A stretch of 64,000 bases of DNA from Alphaproteobacteria bacterium (GTDB lineage: Bacteria > Pseudomonadota > Alphaproteobacteria > DSM-16000 > Inquilinaceae), in assembly GCA_028277405.1 (NCBI GenBank), contig JANQGH010000013.1:1-64000 (forward strand). The letters are read 5' to 3'. Shown here one piece after another: positions 39,531-59,292 of the stretch. A program made the position numbers and the translations under genes. Position 1 is the stretch's first letter. Every line of letters starts with the position of its first letter. The notes beneath the pieces are model-generated. The model ran no database searches. It saw nothing but the letters and a program-made list of their open reading frames with translations, and was not told where the DNA came from.

Positions 39531-39554
39531 CGCACAATTGTTCTCATACCGAAC
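39531..39554. promoter_or_regulatory. IclR-type operator upstream of the SDR at 38722
   Basis: CGCAC-AATT-GTTCT (39531-39544) is a variant of the CGAAC-N4-GTTCG core, and GTTCTCATACCGAAC (39540-39554) is a GTTC-N7-GAAC box like the others. It lies 48 bases before the SDR start. The remaining part of the 173-bp gap up to 39656 shows nothing else. Confidence 0.6.
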
Positions 39555-39656
39555 AGCGTCGCCGAGAGCAACGGGCTGATGGAGGATGCTAGTGTCGCCG
39601 TGAATGGCTCCGGAAGAACGATGCCGCTGATCGCTGAACCCAGAAGACCAAGAACG

Positions 39657-40489: not shown

Positions 40490-40555
40490 GGGTTTCTTCC
40501 TCCCGTTGGACGTTGGTGTGGCGGCCAGAGGCCTAGACCGTCGCGGCGGCGCTGC

Positions 40556-41341: not shown

Positions 41342-41357
41342 GATCTGCCTCCCGTGA

Positions 41358-42218
41358 TCACTGGGTCTTTTTGTGCAGGACGAAGTCGAACGCGGACCGC
41401 CATTTCGTGTCGCCGTCGGTGACCGGCTCGAACGCGACAATCAGCGATTCCTTCACGCCAAAGACCGCGTCGGATTCCAGATAGGGGTCGCCATCCACGA
41501 AAATGTGCGTGACGACCGTGTCGTAGCCCTCGGCGCTGATGATGAAATGCATGTGCGCGGGGCGATTGGGGTGCCGCTCAAGCCGGTAAAGCAACTGCCC
41601 CACGGGCCCGTCATCCGGAATCGGGTAGGAGACCGGCTTGATCCCGCGAAACTGATATCGGCCATCGGCCCCGGTCGTGAACACCCCGCGATTATTGTGC
41701 TTCGGCTGCACGTCAGGCTGTTGCACGTCATAGAAGCCGTCCTCGCTGTCGCACCAGACATCGATCCGCGCGCCTTCGATCGGGGCGCCGTCCAGGTCCC
41801 TGACGGCCCCCTCAAAGACACAAGTCTCCCTGGCCCCCTGCAGCGCGATCGACGCGCCCATCGGGTATTCGGGCGCGCCGTTCACATGAAACGGGCCCAG
41901 CACCGTGTTTTCCGTGGCGCCGGTCGGACGCCGGTTGTTGATCGCGTCGACCAGCATCGAGACGCCGAGGACGTCCGACAGCAGAATGAACTCCTGCCGA
42001 CTGTCGTCGCAGATCTGTCCGGTGCGGGTCAGGAACTCGATCGCGGCGGCCCATTCGTCCTGGGTCAGTTCGACATCCTTGATGAAGGCGTGCAGATGCT
42101 TGACCAGGCTGTGAATCACGTCGGTCAGGCGACCGTCGGTCTTGTCGCCGACGCGTGCGTTCACGGCCTCGACCGAAGACTGTTCGGTGAAATACTGAAT
42201 GTTGCTGTGGTCCGTCAT
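41358..42218 (-). CDS. Intradiol ring-cleavage dioxygenase (catechol/hydroxyquinol 1,2-dioxygenase type), 286 aa
   Basis: Non-haem Fe(III) ligands are in place: Tyr163 (GFYDVQ), Tyr198 (SYPIPDDGPVG), His222 and His224 (RPAHMHF). An N-terminal helical dimerisation domain, GPFHV and ADGRYQFRGIKP follow the catechol/hydroxyquinol branch rather than the protocatechuate one. It opens a catecholic ring to a muconate or maleylacetate. The usual next enzymes (maleylacetate reductase, muconate cycloisomerase) are not in the window. It lies in the same strand block as the ribose-type importer. Confidence 0.9.
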   Translation of the reverse strand: MTDHSNIQYFTEQSSVEAVNARVGDKTDGRLTDVIHSLVKHLHAFIKDVELTQDEWAAAIEFLTRTGQICDDSRQEFILLSDVLGVSMLVDAINNRRPTGATENTVLGPFHVNGAPEYPMGASIALQGARETCVFEGAVRDLDGAPIEGARIDVWCDSEDGFYDVQQPDVQPKHNNRGVFTTGADGRYQFRGIKPVSYPIPDDGPVGQLLYRLERHPNRPAHMHFIISAEGYDTVVTHIFVDGDPYLESDAVFGVKESLIVAFEPVTDGDTKWRSAFDFVLHKKTQ

Positions 42219-42260
42219 CGAAGGTCCTTTGCGTTCGGTCGTCCGCGAGAATATCGGAGA

Positions 42261-44789
42261 TCAGGCTTCCGCCTTCCGCCGCACGGTCGAATAGATCAGC
42301 GCCGCGGCGAGGATCAGCGCGCCCTGGAACATGTATTGATAGGTCTGGGTCAAGCCGAGGAAGGACACGGCGTTCAGTACCATCGTCAGCAGCAATGCGC
42401 CCATCACCGTCCCGATGAAGGTGCCACGACCGCCGAGCAGGCTGGTGCCGCCGAGGACGACCGCCGTGATGCTGGCGAGCGTGTAGTTGACGCCTTGGGC
42501 CGGGTCCCCGACGCCGATCTGCGCCATCAGCATGATGGCCCCAAGCGCCGTCAGCAGCGAGCAGGCGACATAACCGGCGATGAAGGTCAGGTTGGTCCGA
42601 ACGCCAACCCGGCGGGCATTGTCCTCGTTCGACCCGACGGCCCGCAGTCTCCAACCGGGCCGGCGCTTGCGCAGCGTGAACTCGGCAGCAATCGCCAACA
42701 CGACCAGCACGATGAACGCGACCGGAATCGGCCCGAGGCGCCAAGTCAGCGTCTCGATAACCCCGAAATTGATGAAGCCGTCCGGCCCGTCCCGCAGCAC
42801 GAAGCTGAGCCCCTGCAGGCCGATGAACATCGCCAGAGTGGCCGCGATCGGCGTGAAGTTGGCAAACCGGATCAGAGAGCCGTTAATCAGCCCGACGACA
42901 AGGGCGGCGGCGAGCATCAAGGCGAAACCGGCAGCGATCGTCAGCGCCGGCTGGCCATCATTGACGAAGAACGAGGCGATCACGACCAGGAAGCCGGCGA
43001 GCGGACCGACCGACAGGTCGATGCCACCCATCAGCAGCGCAACCGTCTGCCCAAGAGCGATGAAGCCCAGCGCCGTGGCGAGGATCAAAATGTTCGAGAC
43101 GTTAAAGGCGGACAGGAAATTCTCGTTCTGGCCAAAGACATAGAGCGCCAAGGCGACCGCCACCACGACCAGCGGGCCGACCGTCGCATTGTCGGTCTGC
43201 ACGAAATGCTTCACGCGCTCGCCGAAACTGGCGTGATGCCGGCGGGCTTCTTCGACATGATGGGCGTGGGTGTCGGCCTGTACCGCCGCGCCGACGATCC
43301 GCGCCTCGGTTATGTCGTCGCCGCGCAGCGTCTCGACCACGCGCCCGCGCGACATGACGATCACGACATCGCACAGCCCCTCGAGTTCTGCAGCGTCGGA
43401 GGAGTTCACGACAACCGGCGTTCCCGAGCGCGAGACTTCGCGCAGGATGCGGTAGATCTCCGACCGCGCGCCGACATCGACGCCCTGGGTGGGCTCGTCC
43501 GCGACGATGAAGCCAGGCTCCGACAACAGCGCTCGGGCCATGACCACCTTCTGCTGGTTGCCGCCGGATAGCGACAGGATCTTGGCCTCCAGCCCGGCTG
43601 TCTTGACCGCGAGCTCACGAAAGACCTCGTTGACCTTTGCCAGCTCGCGCGGCCGGCGCATCACGCCGCGCAAGCTGAACTTCTCCAGCGCGGCGAAGGT
43701 CGCGTTTTCGCGCACGGTCAGATCCTTGGCGACGCCCTCCGTATGGCGATCCGACGGCATGTAGGCGGCATGGGATTTGAGCGCGGACGCCCCGATGGCG
43801 TGGCCATTGAGCTGTACTTCGCCCGTAATCGACTGTAGGCCGGCCAATGCCCGCATCAGGTCGGCCTGGCCATTACCCTCGACGCCGGCAACGCCGATGA
43901 TCTGGCCGCGGCCGACCTCGAAACTGACATCCTTGAACTTTCGCCCGCTGAGGCCCGAGACGGTGAAGTTGATCTCCGGCGCGGGGTCGTCGAGTTTCAG
44001 CGGGAAAGCGGACTCCAGCGAGCGGCCGACGATCATGCTGAGCAGGTCTTCGTCGCCGACCGCGTCGACCATGGCGCGCCCCGCCATACGGCCGTCGCGC
44101 AGCACCGTCACACGGTCGCCGATCTGGCGCAGTTCCGCGAGGCGATGGGTGATGTAGATGACCGATGTGCCCTCGGCCACCAGGCGCCGGACCTGGCTGA
44201 ACAGCATGTTGGTGGCGTCCTGGTCGAGCGACGCCGTCGGTTCGTCAAGGATCAGCACCCGTGGATTGACCGCCAGCGCCTTCGCCAGCTCCAAGAGGTG
44301 TTTCTGCGCGACGGGCAAGCTGCCCGCCCTCGCCTGCAGCGGCACATGCAGCCCGACCTCGTCCAGCATGCGCCGGGCAATGCCCCTGGTATCGCCCACT
44401 GCGAAGACCTGGGTGGGCAACGCCACCTGCAGGTTTTCCAGCACCGACAGATCCTCAAGAATGGCCGGGTGCTGATAGGAAATCGCGACCCCGAGATCGG
44501 CCGAACTGTCCGGCGACAGCGGGGTCACATCGCGCCCGTCGAACGCGATCGCGCCGCGATCGGGCTGAAGCACGCCGGAAATGATGTTCATCAAGGTGGA
44601 CTTGCCGGCACCGTTCTCGCCGAGGATGGCGTGAACCTCGCCGGCGAAGAACTCGACACTGACATCCGTCAAGGCGTGAACGCCCGCGAACGACTTTGAC
44701 ACGCCGGTCATCCGAATCACGGGATGGCCACGATCGGGCTCGATGGCGTCGACGGCGCTTGCGGCTTCGATGGGCTGTGTCGCTGTCAT
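42261..44789 (-). CDS. Fused RbsA-RbsC: ribose-type ABC ATPase and permease in one chain, 842 aa
   Basis: Residues about 25-250 are the first ABC domain (GENGAGKST Walker A, LDEPTASLDQDATN), 255-490 the second (degenerate Walker A GVEGNGQADLM, signature LSGGNQQKVVMARAL, VADEPTQGVDVG), the usual RbsA layout. After a linker, residues about 530-840 are a complete RbsC-type permease (GQTVALLMGGIDLSVGPLAG; VLGGTSLLGGRGTFIGTVMGA). Normally these are two genes. There is no internal stop or frameshift. A second free RbsC-type gene lies at 45941, so the transporter may be a heterodimer. Confidence 0.9.
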   Translation of the reverse strand: MTATQPIEAASAVDAIEPDRGHPVIRMTGVSKSFAGVHALTDVSVEFFAGEVHAILGENGAGKSTLMNIISGVLQPDRGAIAFDGRDVTPLSPDSSADLGVAISYQHPAILEDLSVLENLQVALPTQVFAVGDTRGIARRMLDEVGLHVPLQARAGSLPVAQKHLLELAKALAVNPRVLILDEPTASLDQDATNMLFSQVRRLVAEGTSVIYITHRLAELRQIGDRVTVLRDGRMAGRAMVDAVGDEDLLSMIVGRSLESAFPLKLDDPAPEINFTVSGLSGRKFKDVSFEVGRGQIIGVAGVEGNGQADLMRALAGLQSITGEVQLNGHAIGASALKSHAAYMPSDRHTEGVAKDLTVRENATFAALEKFSLRGVMRRPRELAKVNEVFRELAVKTAGLEAKILSLSGGNQQKVVMARALLSEPGFIVADEPTQGVDVGARSEIYRILREVSRSGTPVVVNSSDAAELEGLCDVVIVMSRGRVVETLRGDDITEARIVGAAVQADTHAHHVEEARRHHASFGERVKHFVQTDNATVGPLVVVAVALALYVFGQNENFLSAFNVSNILILATALGFIALGQTVALLMGGIDLSVGPLAGFLVVIASFFVNDGQPALTIAAGFALMLAAALVVGLINGSLIRFANFTPIAATLAMFIGLQGLSFVLRDGPDGFINFGVIETLTWRLGPIPVAFIVLVVLAIAAEFTLRKRRPGWRLRAVGSNEDNARRVGVRTNLTFIAGYVACSLLTALGAIMLMAQIGVGDPAQGVNYTLASITAVVLGGTSLLGGRGTFIGTVMGALLLTMVLNAVSFLGLTQTYQYMFQGALILAAALIYSTVRRKAEA

Positions 44790-44824
44790 GGTCAGTCTCG
44801 ATCAACCTTGGGATGCACCGGCAA

Positions 44825-44866
44825 GGGCGGCTGGCCCCGGGCAGGGAGGAATGCCCGGGGCCGCCC
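44825..44866 (-). terminator. Strong hairpin between binding-protein and fused ATPase-permease genes
   Basis: CCCCGGGCA (44835-44843) pairs with TGCCCGGGG (44852-44860), loop of 8; outer GGGCGG (44825-44830) pairs with CCGCCC (44861-44866) with a three-base bulge. It lies directly after the binding-protein stop (44872). No U-run, so an mRNA stabiliser or attenuator is more likely than a full stop. Confidence 0.7.
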
Positions 44867-44871
44867 TCGGA

Positions 44872-45939
44872 TCAGTTGCCCACGGCGTCCGCCTGAACCT
44901 GGGCCGGCACGGCCGAGGACAGGTAGATCGCGCCCGGCAGATCCGGCTCGCACTGGACCGCGTTCGGCTGATCCGTGATCGAGTTTTCGAACACGCCCGA
45001 GGTGAATACGTCGGACTCCGGCGGCGTGCCGCCTGTCGCTTCGGCTATGGCCCATTGCACGGCCAAGCGGACGTTGTCCGTCCCGGTCTCGACCGTCATC
45101 AGGTCGAAATCGGAGTTGTTCGCGCGGTTCTCCTGCCAGAAGCAGCCCAGCGAGTTGCCGTCCGAGGTCGCCAGCGCCGGAATCGAGCGATCGAAATTCT
45201 CGAAGACCGGCAGAGCACCGACGAGGGACGGACCGAAATCCGAGACGATGACGTCGATATCTTCGTGCTGCGCGATGGCGGCCGACAGGACCTGCTGCGT
45301 CAGCGCGGGGTCCCAGTTCGTCACCGCGAACGGTTCGGGGTTGAGGAAGACATAGCTGTCGTCGAGGACCTGCATCATGCCCTCCAACTCCTCCAAGCCC
45401 TGGCTGTTGCCGGCAGGGCCGCTGAGGAACAGGATGTTGGCGCCGTCGGGAAACTGCTCGACGATCCATTCGCCCCACAGCACGCCATTCTCGACGAACG
45501 AGGCGGCGACATAGCGCGTGTAGTTGCGGCCGGCCTCACCACCGACAACCACGCGATACGGAATGACGATCGCGCCCGCGCGGTAGGCGTTGGTCAGCGC
45601 CGGCAGTACCGCCGGGCCGGCGTCGCCGAAGACGACCAGCGCGTCGATCCCGCGCGCGGCCATGGAGTTGATGTCCGAAATGGCCTTCTGCGTGTCGCCC
45701 TGCCCATCGGCATAGAGGTATTCGGTGATGCTGGGGCAGAGCTCTGCCTCCTGACGCCCTGCCTCCGCTGTTACGATCCGCCAGCTATTGCCGCCGAAGC
45801 CGTCGAGCAGCGCCAGCGATGCCTCGTTCGGGCCACACCAGGCCGGCGTGTCCTGCGCTGAGGCGGTGCTGCCGAGCAAGGCCATTGAAAGTCCGGCCGC
45901 GGCGACCGCGACGGCGGTTCTGCAAGTCGATTGGGTCAT
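44872..45939 (-). CDS. Ribose-type ABC transporter solute-binding protein, 355 aa
   Basis: Sec signal (VAVAAAGLSMALLGSTASAQ) then a type I periplasmic-binding fold: DGFGGNSWRIVTAEAGRQ, DINSMAARGIDALVVFG, and IDVIVSDFGPSLVGA. The receptor for the RbsC and fused RbsA-RbsC proteins. Ligand not known; the neighbouring genes (ring-cleavage, dehydrogenases) suggest a cyclic alcohol, an aromatic or a glycoside rather than ribose. Start one base after the RbsC stop. Confidence 0.88.
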   Translation of the reverse strand: MTQSTCRTAVAVAAAGLSMALLGSTASAQDTPAWCGPNEASLALLDGFGGNSWRIVTAEAGRQEAELCPSITEYLYADGQGDTQKAISDINSMAARGIDALVVFGDAGPAVLPALTNAYRAGAIVIPYRVVVGGEAGRNYTRYVAASFVENGVLWGEWIVEQFPDGANILFLSGPAGNSQGLEELEGMMQVLDDSYVFLNPEPFAVTNWDPALTQQVLSAAIAQHEDIDVIVSDFGPSLVGALPVFENFDRSIPALATSDGNSLGCFWQENRANNSDFDLMTVETGTDNVRLAVQWAIAEATGGTPPESDVFTSGVFENSITDQPNAVQCEPDLPGAIYLSSAVPAQVQADAVGN

Positions 45940-45940
45940 G

Positions 45941-46960
45941 TCACTCCTCCTTTGGATTTCTGTTGGCGAGTTTGGTCGTGAGGGTGGTCCAGTTGATCGA
46001 GTAGATCCCGATGCCGACCACGAGCGCTAAGGCCTGGATGATGGTCTGGGCCGAAAAGGGCACACCGACCGCGAGCGCGAACTGGCTCAACTGGTTCAAG
46101 AAGAACGCCGCGATCACGACCGATATCGGGAAGCCGCGTCCGCCCAGCAGCGACGTACCGGCTAACACCACGACCGCCACCGAGGGCAGCAGCAGGCTGT
46201 TGCCTTGGAACGCCGTGGGCTCGCGGGTGATGCCGGCGATCAGGATGCCGGCCACGCAGTAGTGCAACTGTGCGAAGACGTAGGCCATCATCTGGTAGAG
46301 CTTCACCCGCAGCCCCACGGCCTGCGCGGCAAGCGGGTTGGCCCCGATCGCCTCGAAGCGTCGCCCAACAACCGTCTTCTTCATGACGAAGGAAACGAGC
46401 ACCAGGATCGCAAGCGCGATGAAGACCGAATGGTTGATGCCGAAGGTCCTGCCGCCGGCGATCTCGGCCAGGAGGTCGGTGGTGGTGCGCGGCACGCCGC
46501 GGGAGATCGCGAAGACGCCGCCGAACAGAAGCGCGTTCATTCCGATGGTCGCGATGATCGCGTTCAGCCGGTAGACGCCGACAAGCAGGCCGTTGATCAC
46601 GCCCGCCGCGATCGCGCAGCCGAAGGCGAACAGAACGGCGCCTAAGAGATCCGCGTCGTTGCCTGAAGGCATGTGCGTCGCGATGACCACGGCCAGCGAG
46701 ACACCCCCCGGCACCGACAGGTCGAAGCCCCCCTGCTGCACAACCAGCATCTGGCCAAGGCCGACGATGGCCAGCACTGCCGCGAAAGGCAGGCTGCCGA
46801 CCAACGCCCCCGTCGAAACCGCCGACGGGGCGAAGATGAGGCACAGCACGATCAGCGCCACCGTCGATCCGACGATGGTCACGAACCCCTTGGCGAGCGG
46901 GATCTGATGGATCGCCTGCCGCGGGCCCCGTGTTTCGAACTGTGTGTCGGTTTGTGCCAT
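45941..46960 (-). CDS. Ribose-type ABC transporter permease (RbsC type), 339 aa
   Basis: About ten helices; GLGQMLVVQQGGFDLSVPGGVSLAVVIATH and VVLAGTSLLGGRGFPISVVIAAFFLNQL are the RbsC signature regions. It parallels the permease half of the fusion at 42261, so the channel is probably formed by these two unlike halves. Separated by one base from the binding-protein gene. Confidence 0.9.
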   Translation of the reverse strand: MAQTDTQFETRGPRQAIHQIPLAKGFVTIVGSTVALIVLCLIFAPSAVSTGALVGSLPFAAVLAIVGLGQMLVVQQGGFDLSVPGGVSLAVVIATHMPSGNDADLLGAVLFAFGCAIAAGVINGLLVGVYRLNAIIATIGMNALLFGGVFAISRGVPRTTTDLLAEIAGGRTFGINHSVFIALAILVLVSFVMKKTVVGRRFEAIGANPLAAQAVGLRVKLYQMMAYVFAQLHYCVAGILIAGITREPTAFQGNSLLLPSVAVVVLAGTSLLGGRGFPISVVIAAFFLNQLSQFALAVGVPFSAQTIIQALALVVGIGIYSINWTTLTTKLANRNPKEE

Positions 46961-47010
46961 CGCCCTTGTCTTGCGTTCTGTATCTGGCTGGTCCGCCGGG
47001 TTTGCTGTCG

Positions 47011-47991: not shown

Positions 47992-49028
47992 GACACCGTC
48001 TCCATCTCTGCCGGTGCCGGTTCGGGCACCGTTTCGATCCGGCCGCTCGAGGCGGATTTGAAGACCGCCTCCAGCAGCGCGATGGTGTTGACCAGTTCAT
48101 CGCCGGTGATCGGATAGGGCGCCAAGTCACGCACCGCGTGGGCGAAGGCGACCAGATTGTCCTTCACCGGCTCGGCCGGGCCGACTTCCTCGGTGACGAT
48201 CGGCCCACCTGCCGTGGCGGAGGTGACGACCCAGCCATCGGGCGCCTCGACATGGGCCTTGTCGCGGATGTCGATCCAGGCTTTCGAGCCATAGACGGTG
48301 AAGCGCGACATGAAGGGAGTGGCAAGCGAGGCCGAGACGTAGGCCGTGCCGCCGCGCCGGAATTTGACATAAGCCGCCACGGTGTCGCCCTGCGGCAGAT
48401 CGGACGACAGCCGCTCGCAATGGCACAGCACGCTTTGCGCCGGCCCCAACAGCCTAACCGACAGATCGAGCAGATGGATGCCGGTGGCCGTCATCCCACC
48501 GGCAGGCGCCTGATCGGCCTTTAGGCGCCAATTGCCGGGATCCAGAGACAGGAATTTGTCGTGGCTGAAATTGGCTTCGATCTGATGGATGCGTCCAAGT
48601 TGTCCCGCTTCCGCGCTGGCCAGCAGGTCGGCGATCGGCGGTTCCCAGCGCCGTTCGTGCCCCATGCCCAGGACCAGCCCAGCATCGCCGCACAGCGCGA
48701 CGGATCGCGCAGCCTCGGCGGCCGTCAGGGCCAAGGGCTTTTCGCAGAAGATGTGCCTGCCTGCCCGGATAGCCGCCTCGATCTGGGCGCTGTGCAGCGC
48801 GTGCGGCGTGGCCAGCACGACGGCTTCAACCGCCGGATCGCGCAACGCATCGGCATAGTCGGCCGACAGCGGGATGCCTCTTTCGGCACACAACGACATA
48901 GCGGAACCGATGTCGGGCTCGACCGCGCGCACGACCGCGATCTCGTCCGATGCGGCCTCCAGCACGGCAAGCATCTTGCGGCCCCACCAGCCGAGCCCAA
49001 CCAGCGCGATGCGGACCGGATCGGGCAT
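47988..49028 (-). CDS. Gfo/Idh/MocA-family NAD-dependent oxidoreductase, 346 aa
   Basis: Rossmann start IALVGLGWWGRKMLAVLE, the EKP motif IFCEKPLALT, and GIHLLDL for the catalytic His. Members oxidise or epimerise sugars and inositols. ATG 49028 is preferred to an in-frame upstream start that would overlap the YciI gene widely; the ATG overlaps the YciI TGA by one base. With the two alcohol dehydrogenases it forms a set of sugar-type dehydrogenases. Confidence 0.88.
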   Translation of the reverse strand: MPDPVRIALVGLGWWGRKMLAVLEAASDEIAVVRAVEPDIGSAMSLCAERGIPLSADYADALRDPAVEAVVLATPHALHSAQIEAAIRAGRHIFCEKPLALTAAEAARSVALCGDAGLVLGMGHERRWEPPIADLLASAEAGQLGRIHQIEANFSHDKFLSLDPGNWRLKADQAPAGGMTATGIHLLDLSVRLLGPAQSVLCHCERLSSDLPQGDTVAAYVKFRRGGTAYVSASLATPFMSRFTVYGSKAWIDIRDKAHVEAPDGWVVTSATAGGPIVTEEVGPAEPVKDNLVAFAHAVRDLAPYPITGDELVNTIALLEAVFKSASSGRIETVPEPAPAEMETVS

Positions 49029-49312
49029 CAGCGATTGTCCACCCGCTTGGCAAACGGGCGGATCGACACCGTCTTCCACAGGCCTGCCTGTGCGAACGGA
49101 TCGTCCCGGTTGAAGGCCTCGACCTCTTCAATGCTGTCGGCCTCGAGGACGAAGCAACTGCCGATCATCGTCTCTTCGTCATCGGCCAAGAGCGGGCCGG
49201 AAATCACGGTCTTGACCGGCGCCTGGGCGAGATAGGCCTTGTGGGTCTCATACAGCGACAACCGCTTTTCGATCGCTCCGTCATGGTCCAGGCAATGAAC
49301 GACGTAATGCAT
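49028..49312 (-). CDS. YciI-family protein, 94 aa
   Basis: Small alpha-beta barrel with the family His-Asp pair in VVHCLDHDGAIEKR and SIEEVEAFNRDDPFAQAGLW; close in fold to ABM and muconolactone isomerase. Biochemical role of the family is mostly unknown; some act as dehydrochlorinase or lactone isomerase-like enzymes. Stop overlaps the next start. Confidence 0.85.
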   Translation of the reverse strand: MHYVVHCLDHDGAIEKRLSLYETHKAYLAQAPVKTVISGPLLADDEETMIGSCFVLEADSIEEVEAFNRDDPFAQAGLWKTVSIRPFAKRVDNR

Positions 49313-49336
49313 GGTGCTTCCCCTAGGCTGCAGTCA

Positions 49337-50407
49337 TCACGAGGGAATGATCCGGCGCGCCCGCAGCTCGTCGAACACATCGAAGAAGCTGTCGGGCGTG
49401 CGCTGATGGGTGGTGAAGCCGCGCGTACGGCTGTTGGTCATGTCGGTGAGGCATTCCAGATTGCGGCCCAGATCGGCATCGCTGTGCCACCAGGAGGCCA
49501 GGCGGCTGACTGGAAGGTCTTCAAGCTCATGCTTGGCCACGATCTCGGACCAAACCGCATGAGCATCGGCCATCTGCTCTTCAAGAAGGGTTGGATGGCC
49601 AGGGTATGGAGCGACTTCTAGCTCGAAATACTTGGCGATCTCAGCCCACAGCCAGGTCCAGCGAAACACGTCGCCATTGACCGTATTGAACGGCAGGTTG
49701 GCGGCCTCCGGGGTGGTCGCGGCCCAATGGAGTTGCTTGGCCAGCAGCCGTGCATCGGTCACATCAGTGACGGCGTTGTACTGGTCGGGCGAGCCGGGAA
49801 AGACGAAGGGCCGACCTGTGTGCTTGCAGATCGATGCGTAGATCGCGAGCGTGACCGCCATGTTCATGGCATTGCCAACGACGAACCCGATCATGGTGTG
49901 GGGGCGGTGGACCGACCAGGTGAAGCCCCGCCGTTCGGCCATTTCGAACAGCACGTCTTCCTGATCGTAATAGAAGTTGGGGCCCGGCAGCCTTGGGCTG
50001 TCTTCCAGGAACGGCGTATAGGGCGTGACCTGCGCATAATCGTCGAACGAGCCGAGATAATGCTTCAGGCCCGTCACCAGGGCCGCATGGCGCAGCGGCG
50101 CGGCCGCAAGCCCGTCGAAGAGATTGCGAATCATCGCGGCGTTTACGGCGATGTTCTCCTCTTCGGTCGCCTGGCGAGACCAGGTGCAATAGAAGACGTG
50201 CGTAACGTCGGACGCCTGGCGAAGCGCCGTGGCACTGGCCTCAGCATCGGTCAGGTCGGCAGCGATGTGGCGGTCGGACCAAGGAAGGTCCGCCGCCCCG
50301 CGCGACACCGTGACGACCGTCCAGCCAGCGTCTTTCAGGTGCCGGCCGGCATAGCTGCCCGACAGGCCGGTGGCGCCGACGATCAGGGCGACGTTCGAAC
50401 CGGTCAT
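49337..50407 (-). CDS. PRISE-like enone reductase (progesterone 5-beta-reductase/iridoid synthase type), 356 aa
   Basis: Extended SDR with GATGLSGSYAGRHL, the PRISE-type Lys115 in VTGLKHYLGSF and Tyr147 in NFYYDQEDVLFE, separated by 32 residues as in plant progesterone 5-beta-reductases; SVHRPHTMIGF follows. Such enzymes reduce activated enones by 1,4-hydride addition. ATG 50407 is chosen over an earlier start with a non-Rossmann Arg-rich extension. It overlaps the upstream alcohol dehydrogenase gene by 4 bases. Confidence 0.82.
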   Translation of the reverse strand: MTGSNVALIVGATGLSGSYAGRHLKDAGWTVVTVSRGAADLPWSDRHIAADLTDAEASATALRQASDVTHVFYCTWSRQATEEENIAVNAAMIRNLFDGLAAAPLRHAALVTGLKHYLGSFDDYAQVTPYTPFLEDSPRLPGPNFYYDQEDVLFEMAERRGFTWSVHRPHTMIGFVVGNAMNMAVTLAIYASICKHTGRPFVFPGSPDQYNAVTDVTDARLLAKQLHWAATTPEAANLPFNTVNGDVFRWTWLWAEIAKYFELEVAPYPGHPTLLEEQMADAHAVWSEIVAKHELEDLPVSRLASWWHSDADLGRNLECLTDMTNSRTRGFTTHQRTPDSFFDVFDELRARRIIPS

Positions 50408-51471
50408 GTGGTCACCAGGATCTTCAGGTTCTCGCCGGCCGGGTCGAGCAACGCCTCGAAGCCTTCCTCGACCACATCGTCCGCGTCGATCCGGGCGGTA
50501 ATAACCTTTTCGACCGGGAAGCCTCCGGCCGCGATCATGCGCGCGATGCGCGGCCAGATCTGAGTCGGGTAGCACCAGGTCGCCTCGACGGTGATGTCCT
50601 TCAGCGCCCAGAGCATCGCGTCGATCCGCGCGGGCTTAATATGCAGACCGACCTGAACGACCCGGCCCTGGCGGCGCGCGGCCTCGACACAAGCGTTCAG
50701 CGACGCTTCGAGACCGACGCATTCCAGCGCGACGTCGACCCCGACACCTTCCTCGGTCAGGTCCCCGACCAAGGTAGGGAGGTCGCCGGTGCCGGGGTCG
50801 ACGACGATGGCGTAAGGCGCGATCTCGGACATGATCCGCCGGCGGTTTGGATTCGGTTCGGAGACGATGATGGTCGAAGCGCCCGCCGCGCAGGCCGCCA
50901 GCACGGTCAGGGCGCCGATCGGCCCGGCGCCGGAGACGAGGACGGTCGAACCCGCCGTGACGCCGCCGCGATCGACGCCGTAGAGCGCCACGGCCGCCGG
51001 CTCGATCATCGCTGCCTGGTCGTCGGTGATGCCGTCGGGAATAGGCTGGGCGTTGTAGTCCTTGACGATCGCCTTTTCGGCCATCCCGCCCCAGGCCCAG
51101 CTCAGCCCCACGCAAGCCATCTTCGGCGACAGGTGATAAAGGCCGCGCTTGCCGTAATAGTCGTCGCGCGGCGAAAGCAGCGGCTGGACCGAAATGCGGT
51201 CGCCCGCCTCGACATGGGAGACGCCGTCCCCGACAGCGAGCACGGTGGCCGATGTTTCGTGGCCGAGGATCTGGGGATTGCTGGCGCCCGTGTATATGTG
51301 CGGCGTTTCGGGGGTCACGATAGGGCCGGCAATGTATTCATGAAGGTCCGTGCCGCAGATCCCGGTGACAGCCGGGGCGATCAGCACGTCATCCGGCGCC
51401 AGTGCATCCGCAGGCTCGGCGACGTCCTCGACCCGAATATCCTTGGCCCCATGGAACCGGACCGCCCTCAT
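50404..51471 (-). CDS. Zinc alcohol dehydrogenase-like (butanediol dehydrogenase-like), without structural zinc Cys set, 355 aa
   Basis: Catalytic Cys in TGICGTDLHEY and His-Glu in LGHETSATVL, GAGPIGALTVLAACAAGASTIIVSE Rossmann motif. The structural zinc lobe is again missing: ISVQPLLSPRDDYYGKRGLYHLSPK lies where four Cys are expected. It is the first gene of the 12-gene minus-strand group, beginning at 51471 in the divergent intergenic region with the 3-hydroxyisobutyrate dehydrogenase-like gene. Confidence 0.86.
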   Translation of the reverse strand: MRAVRFHGAKDIRVEDVAEPADALAPDDVLIAPAVTGICGTDLHEYIAGPIVTPETPHIYTGASNPQILGHETSATVLAVGDGVSHVEAGDRISVQPLLSPRDDYYGKRGLYHLSPKMACVGLSWAWGGMAEKAIVKDYNAQPIPDGITDDQAAMIEPAAVALYGVDRGGVTAGSTVLVSGAGPIGALTVLAACAAGASTIIVSEPNPNRRRIMSEIAPYAIVVDPGTGDLPTLVGDLTEEGVGVDVALECVGLEASLNACVEAARRQGRVVQVGLHIKPARIDAMLWALKDITVEATWCYPTQIWPRIARMIAAGGFPVEKVITARIDADDVVEEGFEALLDPAGENLKILVTT

Positions 51472-51744
51472 CTGATCCTCCCCTTGCGCCGGCCTTGCCG
51501 GCCTGGCCGACCCATGCGCGTTGTGTCTTGGATCACGGCGCGCATGACATCACCCGTGACCGTTGCGCTCTCGGCGTAGTGGCGTTCGAAGGCCGGACCG
51601 CTTGAGCGTGGACAAGGCGTAGCAAGAAAACTTTTGGGCAATTTGGGGAAATTTATCCGCTTCGGAGAAATTAACCTCAGCGGCTCCGCTCTGGAAATCT
51701 AGGCTGGGCGCCCGCGTCTCGGAACGGAATGGGAAGCAAGGACC
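51472..51744. promoter_or_regulatory. Divergent intergenic region with 19-bp-spaced direct repeats
   Basis: This 273-bp gap lies between the minus-strand dehydrogenase operon and the plus-strand 3-hydroxyisobutyrate dehydrogenase/regulator pair. An AT-rich stretch near 51615-51680 holds the imperfect direct repeats GGGGAAATTTA (51645-51655) and GGAGAAATTAA (51664-51674), 19 bp apart. A small hairpin AGCGG-CT-CCGCT is nearby (51679-51690). These are candidate binding sites for the winged-helix/SBP fusion protein; no promoter boxes were assigned. Confidence 0.4.
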
Positions 51745-52668
51745 ATGACCTCGACTGTGCGGACCACCGCGAGCCTGGCGCCCAAAGATCTTGCGCTCGG
51801 CTGGGTCGGCGCCGGCAAGATGGGCGCGCCGATGATCCAGAACCTTCTGGCGAAGGATCTGAAGGTGCTGGTGACCGAGCCAAGCGAGGCGCGATTGTCG
51901 CCTTTGCTTACCGCCGGCGCCACTGGGGCCGACGCGCTTACAGACCACGCCGCTTCAAAGATCGTTTTTTCCACCTTGCCCAACGACAAGGTCCTTTTGG
52001 ACGTGGTTCTGGGGTCCGAAGCGCAAGGCGCGCTTGCCGGGGTACTCGCGCCTGGCGCGGTCTTTGTCGAGATGAGCACGGTCTCGCCGGGATGCTCGGC
52101 CAAGGTCGCCGAAGCGTTAAGCGCACGCGGTGTCCACTACCTCCGCGCGCCCCTGTCCGGCAGCACGGCACTTGCCGAGCAGGCGCTATTGACGGTGCTT
52201 GCCTCGGGCGACGAGCCCGCCTGGGCGGCCGCTTTGCCCTTTCTGCAAATCATGTCGTCGCGCCAGTTCTATCTTGGCCCCGGCGAGGAAGCGCGCTTCA
52301 TGAAGCTGGTGCTCAACACGCTGGTTGGCGCCTCGTCGGCAATTCTTTCCGAGGCCCTGGCGCTCGGCGAAAGCGGCGGTTTGAGCCCGACTGCGATGAT
52401 GGAGGTCATCAACGAGAGCGTGGTCGCCTCGCCGCTTTTGAAATACAAGGAACAGACGGTCGTTTCCGGCGATTACGCCCCGGCCTTTACGATCGGCCAG
52501 ATGATCAAGGATTTCACCCTGATCAGCGACACCGCGCGAGCCGAGGACGTGCCTCTGATCACGACCGGCGTGATCCTCGAACTCTACCGCGCGGCGGCAA
52601 ATGCCGGCTTGAAGGACGATGATTTCTTCGCTTTGGTGAAATGGCAGTCGGACCTGTCATTGCGCTAG
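51745..52668 (+). CDS. 3-hydroxyisobutyrate dehydrogenase-like protein, 307 aa
   Basis: GWVGAGKMGAPMIQNLLA Rossmann start, LRAPLSGSTALAEQALLTVLASGD for the DAPVSGG region, and the catalytic Lys in FMKLVLNTLVGASSAILSEALALGE. Family members oxidise beta-hydroxy acids such as 3-hydroxyisobutyrate or tartronate semialdehyde's reduced form. Its stop is 11 bases before the GTG of the wHTH-SBP gene, and the AGGAAG ribosome-binding sequence of that gene overlaps the stop region, so they should be one operon. Confidence 0.87.
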   Translation: MTSTVRTTASLAPKDLALGWVGAGKMGAPMIQNLLAKDLKVLVTEPSEARLSPLLTAGATGADALTDHAASKIVFSTLPNDKVLLDVVLGSEAQGALAGVLAPGAVFVEMSTVSPGCSAKVAEALSARGVHYLRAPLSGSTALAEQALLTVLASGDEPAWAAALPFLQIMSSRQFYLGPGEEARFMKLVLNTLVGASSAILSEALALGESGGLSPTAMMEVINESVVASPLLKYKEQTVVSGDYAPAFTIGQMIKDFTLISDTARAEDVPLITTGVILELYRAAANAGLKDDDFFALVKWQSDLSLR

Positions 52669-52679
52669 GAAGACCTATC

Positions 52680-54413
52680 GTGCAGCCAGACCCACAGTCA
52701 GGCGCTTTTCAAACGGACCTGGCCAGCCACGAACTCTCAAGGATCGTCGACTTTCTGCGCAAGCTGCGGGAGCCGTTCGACGCCGGCCTGCCCGGCGCAA
52801 AACCGGACGTCTATTGGAACATCGTCCTGGAACTCGTCGATGCCCATCTGCGACGAAACCCGATCGACAAGTCCGGGCTGATCAGCCTTGCCGAGGTGCC
52901 TTACAGCACCGGCAACCGCATGATCACCAAGATGATCGACGACGGGCTGATCGACCTGGTGCCGCGCGGCAACGGGCTGAAGACCCATTTCCTTGAGCCG
53001 ACGGACGCGCTGTTGCGCGCCTTCATGGTCTACGCCACCCATGTGAAGCAGCATTTGGCCCAGACATTCGGGCTGCGGAAAGGCACGGAGACCAGCGAGT
53101 ACTATTTCGGCGGCAGCTATTTCGCGGCCCAGATCATCTCGCCGATCAGGGGCGAGGACATCTCCGGCATGGGCCTGAACAACATCAGGTTCTTGCTCAA
53201 CGACGACAATTACTTCACCTCGATGCGCAACATGTGGGCCGACTTCCGGACCGATATCGGGCGGAAAAGCAGCTTCGAGATGCAGCGCTTGCCGAACCTC
53301 TATGCCCAAGCGCGCAAGACGTTCGCCAAAGGCACGCCCGAATACGATGTCGTCGCCCTCAACATGCCCTGGCTGGGCGATTTCGCCGACCGGGGCGATC
53401 TGGCGCCGCTTGACGATCTGATCGCGGATGCCGCCATCAACCCGCTCGATTTCCATCCGTCGGTCTGGGGCACCGGCACTTGGAAGGGGACCCAATACGG
53501 CATACCGCTCTATTGCACGATCGAGATCCTGGCCGCGCGCAAGGACCTGTTCGAGGACCAGGGCTTGGCCTTTCCAAAGACGTTCGACGACACGATCCAC
53601 GCCGCACGATCGCTCCATAACCCGGAGAAGGAGTTTTACGGCATCGCCTGGAACGGACAGCGCGGCATGCCGATCGCCAATTCGTTCATGTTCTTCCTGG
53701 CGGCCTGCCGCACGACCGTGATCGACATGCCGCTGCGCAATCACGACAGCTGGACCTTCGACCCGTTCGAACGGCTGAAACTGCAGATCGATACGGACGA
53801 CGCGCTGGAAGTCATCGACTACATGAAACAGCTCGTCGAGGTCTCCCCGCCCGATATCGCGACCATCGATTGGGAAGGCCGCATTCGCTATTTCATGTCC
53901 GGGCAGGTCGCGCTGGCCTATTGCTGGACCATGCGCGCGGCGCGGTTCGAGCACGAGTTGAGTTCGCGCGTGACAAGGCGCGTGGCCTACCTGCCGCCGC
54001 CGTCGCGCCGCATGCACAAGGTCGCCGCACCCATCGGCGGGTTCCTGCTGACGATACCGGCCTATGTCGAACCGGCGCGCCGCAAGAAGATCATCAACGC
54101 CATCGCCTGGATGGTCTCACCCGAGGCGATGAAAGCCCATGTCAAGAACGGCTTCCCCGTCGCGCCGCGGTTTTCGGTCTGCGCCGATCCCGAGGCGCTG
54201 GCCTCGTCGCCCATCGTCAGCATGGTGGACCGAATGGCGCGCAAGAACGAGCTGGTCACTTGGGCGCGTCCGCCGATCCCGGAATTCAACCTGATCGAAC
54301 GTACCTTGGGCGAGCAGATCCACGAGGCGGTCTTCCAAGGCAAGACGGCACGGCAGGCGCTGAGGGATGCTGAGAATCAGATCCTCAGGGGCGTTCGAGA
54401 AGAAATGGCCTAG
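52680..54413 (+). CDS. Winged-helix (MarR-like) DNA-binding domain fused to an ABC family 1 solute-binding domain, 577 aa
   Basis: Residues about 44-112 read as a winged helix: VYWNIVLELVDAHLRRN, GLISLAEVPYSTGNRMITKMIDDGLIDLV with a wing (PRGNGLKTHFLEPTD). From residue about 140 the chain is a full family 1 solute-binding domain (EYDVVALNMPWLGDFADRGDLAPL; YGIPLYCTIEILAARKDLFEDQGL; PVAPRFSVC). It has no signal peptide, so it acts in the cytoplasm. GTG 52680 lies seven bases after AGGAAG; ATG 52641 would overlap the previous gene. It is inferred to be a ligand-responsive transcription factor, probably for the divergent operon. The N-terminal fold call is from pattern alone. Confidence 0.78.
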   Translation: MQPDPQSGAFQTDLASHELSRIVDFLRKLREPFDAGLPGAKPDVYWNIVLELVDAHLRRNPIDKSGLISLAEVPYSTGNRMITKMIDDGLIDLVPRGNGLKTHFLEPTDALLRAFMVYATHVKQHLAQTFGLRKGTETSEYYFGGSYFAAQIISPIRGEDISGMGLNNIRFLLNDDNYFTSMRNMWADFRTDIGRKSSFEMQRLPNLYAQARKTFAKGTPEYDVVALNMPWLGDFADRGDLAPLDDLIADAAINPLDFHPSVWGTGTWKGTQYGIPLYCTIEILAARKDLFEDQGLAFPKTFDDTIHAARSLHNPEKEFYGIAWNGQRGMPIANSFMFFLAACRTTVIDMPLRNHDSWTFDPFERLKLQIDTDDALEVIDYMKQLVEVSPPDIATIDWEGRIRYFMSGQVALAYCWTMRAARFEHELSSRVTRRVAYLPPPSRRMHKVAAPIGGFLLTIPAYVEPARRKKIINAIAWMVSPEAMKAHVKNGFPVAPRFSVCADPEALASSPIVSMVDRMARKNELVTWARPPIPEFNLIERTLGEQIHEAVFQGKTARQALRDAENQILRGVREEMA

Positions 54414-54455: not shown

Positions 54456-55610
54456 CTAGCCAGCCGACCCCGCGAACTTCGCCACGTGGTCGTGATAATG
54501 CTGCAAGGCGGGTTCGTTGCGTCCGAAGACGAACGCCTCATTGGCCTTTGACCCCAGCGTCTTCTGGATCTGGAAGCCCATGGCGTAGTCTTCTTCGCGC
54601 ACCGCCTTCAGCACCAGTTGGCTGAAACCCTCGGTCTTGTCGATTTCCTCATTCGTCTCGGGCTTCTTCGCGCACATGATCGACTGGCGCGTCAGGGTCG
54701 TGTCGGGTGTCGGGCCGGGGAAGACCTGGCTGACCAGGCAATGGTCGCCCACGACGCCTGAGATGGACGTGTTGGGAAAGACCGAATGGATCAGGCGGAT
54801 ATGCTCCGACGGGTCATCCCATTGGTCCTCGGGCAGTTTGGCAAGCCGCCTTAGGGACTTACGGCCGAAGACGATGCGCTGGTGCGGGCCGTAAGTGTCG
54901 TGCAGCATCAGGTTGCCGACGGTGTATTTGCCCACCGATTCGGCGTGAAGCGTGTTGTGGTGATAGGCTTCCAGATAGCCGTCCCAGGCAACCTTCCAGC
55001 CGGGTCCGTCGATGTCGCGCTGCTCGTACAGGTACCAGTTGGCGAGGTCGAGCGTTTCCAGCTCGTAGGCAAAAGCACCCAGCCAGTCGTCGATATCGAA
55101 CGCCCTTCCGGGCGTCAGGCAAACCCAGATCAGCCCCGCCCTTTCAGCGCAGGGCAGCTCTTTCAGCCCGCGTTTCTCGGTGTCCAGGTCGCCGAAGGTC
55201 TTTTCGCCATAGATCGACACGAGCTTGCCTTGCATGTCGTAGGTCCAGGCATGGTAGGGGCATGAGAACTCTCGCCGCTCACCGCGCCCGTTGGGGCAGA
55301 CCGGGGCGCCGCGGTGGCGGCAGGCGTTGAGGAAGGCGTGAGCCTTGCCGTCGCCGTCGCGCGTGACGATCACCGGCGTGCCGACGACCTCGATCGCGCT
55401 GTAGCTGTTGGGCTCCGCCACCTCGATCGAAAGCGCCAATGCCAGCGGCAGTTGCTTGAAGACCTTCTCGACCTCGAGAGCGTAGCGTGCCGGGTCGGTG
55501 TAGGCGGACACGTCGAGCGCGTAGGTCGACGCGGCCTGGTCGGTCGTCCGGTTGGAGAAATGGACCACGGCGCGGCGGGCGAGGTCCATGGTTTCGTGCA
55601 TCGGTCGCAT
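54456..55610 (-). CDS. Rieske non-haem iron aromatic-ring oxygenase, alpha subunit, 384 aa
   Basis: Rieske cluster: Cys97-Arg-His99 (ACRHRG) and Cys117-Pro-Tyr-His120 (SCPYHAW). Mononuclear iron site around GYLEAYHHNTLH, with His217 and His222. The choline monooxygenase/carnitine-type or aromatic-ring oxygenases look alike, so substrate is open. It needs an external reductase, which is not in the window. It overlaps the small SnoaL-like gene by one base, as alpha and beta subunits often do. Confidence 0.88.
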   Translation of the reverse strand: MRPMHETMDLARRAVVHFSNRTTDQAASTYALDVSAYTDPARYALEVEKVFKQLPLALALSIEVAEPNSYSAIEVVGTPVIVTRDGDGKAHAFLNACRHRGAPVCPNGRGERREFSCPYHAWTYDMQGKLVSIYGEKTFGDLDTEKRGLKELPCAERAGLIWVCLTPGRAFDIDDWLGAFAYELETLDLANWYLYEQRDIDGPGWKVAWDGYLEAYHHNTLHAESVGKYTVGNLMLHDTYGPHQRIVFGRKSLRRLAKLPEDQWDDPSEHIRLIHSVFPNTSISGVVGDHCLVSQVFPGPTPDTTLTRQSIMCAKKPETNEEIDKTEGFSQLVLKAVREEDYAMGFQIQKTLGSKANEAFVFGRNEPALQHYHDHVAKFAGSAG

Positions 55611-56188
55611 CAGTCTCTCCGCTTCGTTCCCTGGACATACCGGTCTTCGAATTCCTGCCAGGCGGCAAGCCCTTCCGGGTAGTCGGCGGGCAATCGGCGA
55701 TCACCCGCGACGACCCGCTCCGCTTGGGTCAGCGCGCCGACATGTTCCGAGGCCGGGACGTAATAGAGGAAATGAATGGTTCGCTTGGCGAAGCGCCAGC
55801 GTCCGTCTTCCACCCGATACTCATCGTCGTATTTCATGGCGGCAAGGCTGTGCGTTCCGCCGGGCGTCGTCTCCGCGTGGCTGAGCAGCAGGCCGGACGC
55901 CGCAACGTCGGATCCCCTGTCGAACCGGATGATGTGGTCATGCGTCCAGTGATAGCCCGGGCCCCGGATGGCCAGCACCTCGCAGAACATGTCGATGATC
56001 GCCGTCCGCCCCTCGGCACGCATGATGCCGGTCGGGCTGTCGAAGACGGCATCGCGGGTAAACAGGCTTTCGAGCTGCGGAATGTCGCGTTCGTCGCAGG
56101 CGATGCCATAGCGGGTCACGAGATCGGAAATCTCCGCCCGTGCCTCCAGTCGAGTGATCCGAGCCTCAAGCTCGATGAGGTCGGTCAT
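55610..56188 (-). CDS. SnoaL/NTF2-like protein, possibly oxygenase beta-type subunit, 192 aa
   Basis: Cone-shaped NTF2-like fold: EARITRLEARAEISDLVTRYGIACDERDIPQLESLFTRDAVFD, GRTAIIDMFCEVL, and HWTHDHIIRF. It might serve as the beta subunit for the Rieske protein or be an independent isomerase/hydratase. ATG 56188 follows GGAGGTGAC; an upstream ATG at 56227 lies in the dctM-like gene. It starts one base after the DctM-type stop. Confidence 0.82.
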   Translation of the reverse strand: MTDLIELEARITRLEARAEISDLVTRYGIACDERDIPQLESLFTRDAVFDSPTGIMRAEGRTAIIDMFCEVLAIRGPGYHWTHDHIIRFDRGSDVAASGLLLSHAETTPGGTHSLAAMKYDDEYRVEDGRWRFAKRTIHFLYYVPASEHVGALTQAERVVAGDRRLPADYPEGLAAWQEFEDRYVQGTKRRD

Positions 56189-56189
56189 G

Positions 56190-57485
56190 TCACCTCCCAT
56201 AGACGAGTTGGGGCAGCCAGGTCGCAAGGCCCGGCTGCCAGATCAAAAGCGCGACAAGCGCCAGCATCGCGATCACAAAGGGCACGGCGCCGACGCAGAC
56301 ATCGCGAAACGGCGCGCCCCGCGTTCGGATGCCCTGCACCACGAACAGATTGACCCCGATCGGCGGCGTGATCAGCGCGGTTTCCATCAGTACGACGACC
56401 ATGATGCCGAACCACACCGGGTCGTAACCCATGGAGGTCACGAGCGGAAAGACGATGCCGATCGTGGTCAGCATCATGGAAAACGTCTCCATGAACATGC
56501 CGATCACCAGATAGAAGACCACGATCAAAAGCATCAGTTGCAGCGGGCTCAGGCCCAGCGTGCCGATGAACTCGCTGGCCGCCTGTATGGCGCCGAAGAA
56601 GCCGACGATGATGTTGAGGATCATCGCGGCAAAAATGACCAGCATGATCATCGAGGTGGTGCGGACCGTGCCCTCGAAGGACGCCAGCAGCATCGCGCCG
56701 TTCAGCTTGCCGTTCCAGGCGGCAAGGATCAGGGACAGAACGACCCCGATGGACGCCGCCTCGGTCGGCGTGGCAAGACCCGCATAGATCGTGCCGATCA
56801 CACCGAAAAAGATGATGGCCGGTGGGATCAGGTCCTTCAGGGAAACGAGGCGCTCGGCCCAGCTCGCCTGGATGCGGTCGCCGCCCATGTCCGGCCGGAT
56901 CACACAGATGATCAGGATCATGACCGAGAACAGCGCCGCAAGCAGCAGGCCCGGCAGGACGCCGGCGAGATAAAGCTCCGGCACCGATGTCTGCGTCAGC
57001 ACGCCGTAGACGATCAGCGTGACGGAGGGCGGGATCAGAATGCCGAGAGTTCCGCCCGCCGCGACCGAGCCGAGGAACAGCGGCTCGTTATAGTGATGCC
57101 GCTCGATCTCCGGATAGGCGACGGTGCCGATGGTGGCGGCCGTGGCGACGGAGGACCCGGAGGTGGCGGCGAAGATCGACGACGAGCCGATGTTGGAATG
57201 CATCAGCCCGCCGGGAAGCCAACTCAGCCATTTGGCGACGGCGGAGTACATCTGCCCGGCAAGGCCGGCCCGTAAGTTGATTTCGCCCAGAAGGATGAAG
57301 AGCGGGATGGAGAGCAACAGGTACTGGTTCGATTTCTCCCATAGGAACCCGCCGAAGGTCCGCTGTAGCCGCCCATCGTTCCAGAAATAGTCCGTGACGG
57401 TCGCAAGATTGCCCAGGATCGCCGCCACCGGCAGCGACAGCGCGATGAGCAGGACGAGGCCAACAAGGAAGAACGCGACGCTCAC
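56190..57485 (-). CDS. dctM: TRAP transporter large permease (DctM type), 431 aa
   Basis: Hydrophobic through its length; SIPLFILLGEINLRAG, SGSSVATAATIGTVAYPEIE, GILIPPSVTLIVYGVLT are the DctM hallmarks. GTG 57485 overlaps the DctQ stop (GTGA); an earlier in-frame start is inside the DctQ gene and reads as Arg-rich non-coding. It completes the second TRAP system with the DctQ and DctP genes upstream. Confidence 0.9.
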   Translation of the reverse strand: MSVAFFLVGLVLLIALSLPVAAILGNLATVTDYFWNDGRLQRTFGGFLWEKSNQYLLLSIPLFILLGEINLRAGLAGQMYSAVAKWLSWLPGGLMHSNIGSSSIFAATSGSSVATAATIGTVAYPEIERHHYNEPLFLGSVAAGGTLGILIPPSVTLIVYGVLTQTSVPELYLAGVLPGLLLAALFSVMILIICVIRPDMGGDRIQASWAERLVSLKDLIPPAIIFFGVIGTIYAGLATPTEAASIGVVLSLILAAWNGKLNGAMLLASFEGTVRTTSMIMLVIFAAMILNIIVGFFGAIQAASEFIGTLGLSPLQLMLLIVVFYLVIGMFMETFSMMLTTIGIVFPLVTSMGYDPVWFGIMVVVLMETALITPPIGVNLFVVQGIRTRGAPFRDVCVGAVPFVIAMLALVALLIWQPGLATWLPQLVYGR

Positions 57486-58042
57486 AGCGCGCTCTCTTCC
57501 GATTGGCGAGAGGCGTGCGGAATGCCAGCCACCTTCGCAACGCGATCGTATCGTCGGCGCATCAGCAGAAGAACGACGTAAGTGACGAGGAAGACAGTGC
57601 AGATCAGGAAGAACAGAAGCCCCGCCAGCCAGAAGGCTTGCGGGATCCAGAGCGGGGTCTGCATGGTCGTGCGCGACCGGGCATCGAACAAAAGCGTGTC
57701 GTCTAGGGTGAGCCAGGCGCGATAGCTCAGGACGGCGACGAACAGCCCCAGGGCCAGTAGCGACAGAAGATCGGCCCAGGCGCGCAGCCTGGCGCCGAAA
57801 TGCTGATAGGCCACATCGATCCGGACATGGGCGCGCTCGAAAAGCACGAAGCTGAACCCCCATGTCGTCGCGATCGCGAAGACGTAGCCGGAAAACTCAT
57901 AGACCCCGGGCAGCGCCATCGCGAACAGGTTGCGCAGCGCGATGTCCAACGTCGTGGCCAAGGCGATAAGCAGATAGCCCGCGCCGGAAAGCCAGACGCT
58001 CAGCCGCGAGATGCGGAACAGTATCCGATGCAGGGTGTCCAT
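57482..58042 (-). CDS. dctQ: TRAP transporter small permease (DctQ type), 186 aa
   Basis: Four-helix membrane protein: RISRLSVWLSGAGYLLIALATTLDIALRNLF, YEFSGYVFAIATTWGFSFVLFERAHVRID (typical HVRID end), and WIPQAFWLAGLLFFLICTVFLVTYVVLLL. ATG 58042 was chosen; an upstream start would run through the hairpin at 58053-58082. Composition is normal, unlike the first DctQ gene. Confidence 0.88.
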   Translation of the reverse strand: MDTLHRILFRISRLSVWLSGAGYLLIALATTLDIALRNLFAMALPGVYEFSGYVFAIATTWGFSFVLFERAHVRIDVAYQHFGARLRAWADLLSLLALGLFVAVLSYRAWLTLDDTLLFDARSRTTMQTPLWIPQAFWLAGLLFFLICTVFLVTYVVLLLMRRRYDRVAKVAGIPHASRQSEESAL

Positions 58043-58052
58043 CGGCTTCGGG

Positions 58053-58082
58053 CGGCGGGCCCCGGGGTCGCAGGACCCGCCG
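58053..58082 (-). terminator. Hairpin between dctP and dctQ of the second TRAP system
   Basis: CGGCGGG (58053-58059) pairs with CCCGCCG (58076-58082), and the stem can be extended with one mismatch. It lies between the dctP stop (58089) and the dctQ start (58042). As at 15688 and 44825, it directly follows a binding-protein gene and precedes the membrane genes. Confidence 0.6.
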
Positions 58083-58088
58083 TTTCTC

Positions 58089-59165: not shown

Positions 59166-59244
59166 CCTTCCCCCCTTCTTGTCATGCGACGGTCCGCCTT
59201 TCCGACGGGTCTCGCCACCGATACCAAAACATCGCTTTAAATTC

Positions 59245-59271
59245 AATCGATATCGGTATTATCGATTTCGA
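59245..59271. promoter_or_regulatory. MarR-type operator upstream of the second TRAP operon
   Basis: Perfect 8-bp arms AATCGATA (59245-59252) and TATCGATT (59260-59267) around a 7-base spacer. The 15-mer TATTATCGATTTCGA (59257-59271) recurs exactly at 61704-61718, next to the MarR gene. It lies between dctP (start 59165) and the amidohydrolase stop (59293). Confidence 0.7.
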
Positions 59272-59292
59272 GGATCGTGCGCTGGAGGAGAG

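Follow-up and report, generated by a model that had tools for sequence, protein, structure and literature searches.

How is a gene to be read whose product starts with a winged helix and continues into an entire family 1 solute-binding protein? The question is raised by one locus of the window, i.e., the whole stretch of 64,000 nucleotides which was analysed. An earlier note had proposed a cytoplasmic winged-helix/binding-protein regulator, and this proposal is supported by the domain content, the missing export signal and the fold of the head. We put the probability at about 0.85 that the protein is a cytoplasmic one-component regulator in which a winged-helix head is joined to a binding-protein sensor, with a predicted operator before a divergent operon. 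By domain content it belongs to the one-component systems, as a DNA-binding output and a ligand-binding input are combined in one chain. Computation established the fusion and how it is conserved, showed that an export signal is missing, and brought out both the synteny and the operator.

The regulator gene

The gene for the 577-aa protein extends from 52680 to 54413 on the plus strand, with an open frame from 52680 to 54410, a stop codon at 54411-54413 and a GTG start. The GTG at 52680 is positioned 11 nt past the stop of the preceding dehydrogenase gene. An alternative start, the ATG at 52641, would add 13 residues. The GTG is favoured because the ribosome site AGGAAG (52667-52672, plus strand) lies 7 nt upstream, several orthologues have a GTG available at a similar place, and conservation of the 13-residue extension was not found in the orthologues. 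Pfam and AlphaFold2 confirm the initial description of a single 577-codon frame which encodes a winged helix and then a complete binding domain.

The winged-helix head

In the 577-aa protein itself Pfam reports SBP_bac_1 alone (E=1e-22, residues 209-484); the winged helix stays below threshold. When the whole protein was submitted to Foldseek the best 50 matches were all binding proteins, and the head was therefore modelled and searched separately. The isolated head reached a pLDDT of 86. All but a few of its best 50 matches in the PDB are MarR regulators, with modest TM-scores of about 0.4-0.5. In the AlphaFold2 model helices comprise residues 16-36, 44-57, 64-71, 75-87 and 109-129, and strands residues 91-95 and 103-107; core confidence is high. 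This is the MarR topology including the flanking helices. A MarR-like pattern had been noticed at residues of about 44-112; structure prediction and fold search place the MarR-type head, with its long flanking helices, at residues 16-129 (52725..53066, plus strand). Helix 75-87 (52902-52940, plus strand) is the probable recognition helix. A linker of residues 130-164 (53067..53171, plus strand), modelled at low confidence, leads to the second domain.

At the sequence level the MarR assignment is weak. Twenty-one of 36 homologues match MarR_2 weakly, and the others match HTH_IclR, HTH_20, HTH_24, MarR or TrmB. The curated Pfam cut-offs for MarR and MarR_2 were not reached: the best homologue has a MarR_2 E of about 0.002, and no such match is listed for the 577-aa regulator.

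A profile built from the head alone also detects this module in other genomes of the class, where receiver-domain proteins carry it as their C-terminal part (L098 and L104, Response_reg E 1e-21 and 4e-19). These share the winged-helix module with the regulator, yet their input is a Response_reg receiver instead of a binding protein, and the head is placed at the C-terminus. Because the same head terminates receiver-domain proteins, its probable role as a DNA-binding output domain gains independent support. Further proteins (L097, L099-L101, L103, L105), all from one family of the class (f13), have the same C-terminal winged helix and no recognised receiver.

The binding-protein domain

Residues of about 165-577 (53172..54410, plus strand) form a family 1 solute-binding domain (SBP_bac_1) according to Pfam and to sequence and fold matches in the PDB, with 5iai first. 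In structural alignments the sensor shares about 24% identity with the exported family 1 proteins 5iai and 4rya. Cleft residues common to 5iai and the regulator are W231, NGQ-G at 325-329, W416, GG at 453-454 and R497. The most conserved stretch of the protein is 480-511; residues 486-504 of the C-terminal lobe have low AlphaFold2 confidence. Among solved structures, the binding proteins nearest to the sensor bind sugars or polyols, and 4rya is labelled as a sorbitol protein.

Cellular location

In eight orthologues an in-frame stop codon is located 10-12 codons ahead of the first conserved residues of helix 1. These stops leave no room for a signal peptide, and none was found on the regulator, as had been claimed at the outset. 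Export was judged from the in-frame stops, as a hydrophobicity scan could not tell proteins with a signal peptide from those without. Most other family 1 proteins encoded in this genome have a typical export leader at their start. Judged by its reading frame, the regulator is almost certainly cytoplasmic and devoid of an export signal.

Distribution and origin of the family

A single scan of GTDB species genomes yielded 57 loci, nearly all full length; in L048, L052 and L057 the gene is broken or truncated at the end of a contig, and there are at least 54 full-length relatives. At least 54 GTDB loci and, at identities as low as 28%, 32 plasmid copies keep both halves of the protein, counts in which related loci are non-independent observations. 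The divergent synteny is conserved as well. Rhodobacterales proteins are about 76-83% identical to the 577-aa regulator; the values fall to 60-63% in an intermediate group and to 47-50% in Rhizobiaceae and their relatives. Plasmid relatives from Phaeobacter, Tritonibacter, Marinovum, Skermanella, Aminobacter and Agrobacterium are 28-36% identical over 91-97% of the length; those which are annotated are nearly all called 'extracellular solute-binding protein'. The fusion is also kept in three 1.4-Mb genomes of one genus and in one genome outside the Alphaproteobacteria. Overall the regulator is uncommon, being present in 8 of 385 genomes sampled across the class (E<=1e-60).

A tree of the binding part separates 21 regulators from 13 exported proteins by one branch with support of 98/99. 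With all 21 regulators on one side of this branch, a single fusion event is the simplest reading. The 16 other genomes of the window's own family (G001-G016) have no regulator at E<=1e-20. Since these genomes lack it although copies with 76-83% identity exist in Rhodobacterales, the cluster has likely been transferred horizontally.

The earlier note had also suggested that the sensor was copied from an importer. This is contradicted by the single, old clade of all regulators tested and by the adjacent importer, the binding protein of which is a Peripla_BP_4, a different class; copying from the adjacent importer was rejected. In two distant loci, from Agrobacterium and Aminobacter, where family 1 importers are neighbours, the regulators have no BLASTP match to the adjacent importer at E<=1e-3, and these importer proteins fall outside the regulator clade.

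The divergent operon

A NAD_binding_2-type hydroxyacid dehydrogenase gene (51745..52668, plus strand) precedes the regulator in the same unit and is a conserved neighbour, found upstream of the regulator in 48 of 58 loci (the 57 plus the window). Across the gap 51472-51744 a divergent operon of 12-13 genes occupies 38722-51471 on the minus strand, in line with the 12-gene operon and the gap reported before. Its genes, assigned by Pfam and locus comparison and all on the minus strand, start with a Zn-dependent dehydrogenase (50404..51471). A PRISE-like SDR reductase follows (49337..50575; judging from orthologue L007 the true start is probably nearer 50407), then a YciI-like protein (49028-49312), a Gfo/Idh/MocA dehydrogenase (47988-49079) and a second Zn dehydrogenase (47011-47991). 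A ribose-type importer (42261..46960) comprises a permease (45941-46960), the Peripla_BP_4 binding protein (44872-45939) and an ATPase-permease fusion (42261-44789). An intradiol ring-cleavage dioxygenase is encoded at 41358..42218. The importer fusion is a chain of 842 aa with two ATPase domains and a BPD_transp_2 permease, and this arrangement recurs in five other loci (cluster 22).

The divergent Zn dehydrogenases, the Gfo/Idh/MocA dehydrogenase, YciI, the PRISE-like SDR and the ribose-type importer recur in Rhodobacterales and Rhizobiaceae, and annotated records agree with this divergent gene set. In several Rhizobiaceae this position is taken by a different ribose-type importer (clusters 14, 11, 18, 23), and distant family members adjoin other importers. 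No DNA-binding family was among the conserved neighbour families scanned.

Among the operon dehydrogenases are IolG-like and IolM-like ones with scores below the cut-offs of those families, and a maleylacetate reductase joins the operon in relatives. From these genes we infer that a cyclitol-like substrate might be converted to a hydroxyquinol-type ring which is then cleaved. The stretch 39657-51471 (minus strand), with inositol-dehydrogenase-like enzymes and the intradiol dioxygenase, possibly encodes such a cyclitol-to-hydroxyquinol route; no described pathway matching it was found in the freely accessible literature. The earlier note had guessed at a sugar or an aromatic glycoside as the ligand of the regulator. 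Judged by the enzymes encoded nearby and by the most similar binding proteins of solved structure, a polyol, a cyclitol or a derivative of either would be the better candidate.

On the other side of the regulator a convergent cluster (54456-60561, minus strand) encodes a Rieske ring-hydroxylating oxygenase, TRAP transporter parts and a peptidase/amidohydrolase-like protein; apparently it is a separate catabolic unit.

A conserved palindrome between the divergent units

The gap 51472-51744 had been put forward as the target region of the regulator, and a strongly conserved, predicted palindromic operator was indeed found there. K-mer and inverted-repeat searches uncovered a 23-bp palindrome, AATTTATCCG-N3-CGGATAAATT, in the divergent gap. 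The copy in the window, AATTTATCCGCTTCGGAGAAATT (51650..51672), has a 10-3-10 plan and deviates by one mismatch; 0.00 such sites are expected per 64 kb. A pattern search with up to 3 mismatches identified it as the sole site in the 6.2-Mb genome, and the reversed control pattern gave no site in that genome under the same limit.

A symmetric operator matrix was trained on 17 Rhodobacterales sites alone, and every other locus was compared with 200 dinucleotide shuffles. At p<=0.01 the matrix matched every one of the 31 other orthologous loci; at p<=0.05 it matched 10 of the 14 distant members and did not detect the palindrome in the remaining 4. The distance of the palindrome to the GWxG codons of the dehydrogenase varies between orders from about 140 to about 200 bp upstream. 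The three 1.4-Mb genomes use AATATATTCA-N3-TGAATAT(A/T)TT, i.e., the same 10-3-10 plan with shifted letters. In these AT-rich, streamlined genomes (G045, G272, G349; loci L068, L086-L088) the regulator is preceded by a perfect or near-perfect palindrome, and the product of the divergent neighbour begins like an exported protein.

Weaker core sites accompany the palindrome in Rhodobacterales. They are located at exactly -29 bp in 10 of 18 loci and at +29 bp in 5 of 18, and every other offset occurs in at most 4 of these loci. In the window the secondary predicted core, TCCGCTCTGGA, is at 51685..51695, its center 29 bp from that of the primary site. A scan of the gap 51472-51744 found no consensus sigma-70 promoter. 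After alignment of the loci on the operator, a TANNNT element was found on the right of the palindrome, at 27-28 bp, in 17 of 18 Rhodobacterales loci; in the Rhizobiaceae group all 26 loci have one on the left, at 28-29 bp. At the fixed offset on the right the window has TAGGCT (51700..51705, plus strand), the predicted -10 element of the dehydrogenase-regulator unit. Either end of the primary palindrome is about 27-29 bp away from a predicted -10 element, which places the palindrome immediately upstream of where the -35 boxes are expected.

Relation to known regulators

Pfam domains of binding proteins act as sensors in transcriptional regulators (PMC9602780). SgrR and the SgrR-like DsvR of Vibrio cholerae combine an HTH with SBP_bac_5 (PMC13060122; PMC7786190), and E. 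coli SgrR activates sgrS (PMC7786190). With SgrR (E. coli sgrR/b0069) and DsvR our regulator shares the single cytoplasmic chain of an N-terminal winged helix/HTH and a whole ABC-type binding domain, and also the divergent gene arrangement; SgrR itself is autoregulated. However, SgrR consists of SgrR_N and SBP_bac_5 whereas the 577-aa regulator consists of a MarR-like head and SBP_bac_1, and it adjoins importer and catabolic operons, not sgrS. SgrR_N (PF12793) matched neither the regulator, nor the 36 homologues, nor any protein of the whole genome, compared with 2e-43 for E. coli SgrR. SBP_bac_5 was not found in the regulator, which has SBP_bac_1/SBP_bac_8 instead. No sequence relation to E. 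coli SgrR was found by BLASTP (E=1.8) or hhalign (probability about 1%). Membership in the SgrR family was rejected by domain content, BLASTP and profile comparison. Of the initial idea of an undescribed one-component system, novelty of the architectural principle must be given up, as it is known from SgrR; the separateness stands because no sequence relation was found. By sequence, this is a separate, overlooked family with another class of binding protein and a working principle like that of SgrR.

MarR proteins manage with about 140 residues, the ligand being bound at the dimer interface. The regulator resembles them in the winged helix between long helices, with MarR structures dominating the fold matches of the head, and in the palindromic predicted operator in a divergent gap; it differs in a head below the MarR cut-offs and in a separate binding domain of 410 residues. 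LacI, LysR and others also use a periplasmic-binding-protein-like fold as a cytoplasmic sensor, yet with other HTH types and other classes of binding fold. The exported family 1 proteins (5iai, 4rya, paralogues of the own genome) have the fold and domain of the sensor, but they carry export leaders, have no winged helix and stand outside the regulator clade. Searches of the freely accessible literature for regulators with a winged helix and a family 1 binding protein returned nothing relevant.

Working model and alternatives

Dimerisation, DNA binding, the ligand and the sign of control are what we infer from these data. The heads would pair as a dimer, presumably through helices 16-36 and 109-129, and the dimer would occupy the 23-bp palindrome at 51650-51672, with the core sites 29 bp away bound more weakly. 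Because the sites separate the dehydrogenase-regulator unit from the divergent operon, the regulator is expected to control both units and itself. The C-terminal domain, a two-lobed clamp, would sense a compound inside the cell, most likely either the imported substrate, polyol- or cyclitol-like, or an intermediate of its catabolism. Filled sites at ±29 bp would cover the -35/-10 spacers and shut both promoters; the ligand would close the clamp, alter DNA binding and release them. That the apo form represses and ligand relieves is the sign of control to which we incline, with modest confidence. The same cytoplasmic sensor-regulator could alternatively work as a ligand-dependent activator of both divergent units. 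This is a serious rival because of the position of the primary site, immediately before the expected -35 boxes and about 27-29 bp away from the -10 elements; the lack of a consensus sigma-70 promoter in the gap and the activation of sgrS by SgrR fit it as well. Against it, protein bound at the weaker ±29 bp cores, between -35 and -10, would block polymerase, and MarR-type proteins are mostly repressors. We regard activation as a tentative but real possibility.

Two other readings touch the sensor itself. The binding-protein domain of a DNA-binding regulator might have given up ligand binding and act as a scaffold or in protein contacts, e.g., with the ATPase of the importer. Residues 486-504 in the C-terminal lobe have low model confidence, which would suit this idea; yet the surrounding stretch 480-511 is the most conserved of the protein, and the residues kept in common with 5iai fit a retained ligand cleft, so that such a loss seems improbable. 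A conventional ABC binding protein which is exported, has an unusual N-terminus and was misread as a regulator would agree with the database annotation and the complete SBP_bac_1 domain. This reading was rejected in view of the missing signal peptide, the in-frame stops, and a winged helix confidently predicted and kept across homologues. Moreover, the regulators form a clade apart from exported proteins, a conserved palindrome precedes the unit, and the importer of the operon already has its own binding protein of another class. An exported protein is thus extremely improbable.

Significance

Taken together, the 577-aa protein probably represents an unnamed family of one-component regulators which extends through the Alphaproteobacteria and beyond. 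It would descend from one ancient fusion of a MarR-type head with a family 1 binding protein, use a common ATCC(G/A)-N3-(C/T)GGAT code to control the uptake and breakdown of sugars or cyclitols, and have been overlooked through its annotation as an exported protein. A set of gene switches would then be hidden under the label 'extracellular solute-binding protein', and each member recognised would yield its own regulon, i.e., operator and operon. Few sugar-sensing folds are as well understood or as much engineered as that of the family 1 binding proteins, so their natural fusion to a DNA-binding head may offer a ready scaffold for transcriptional biosensors. The comparison with SgrR suggests that binding proteins were joined to winged helices at least twice in evolution, once in SgrR and once in the family described here.
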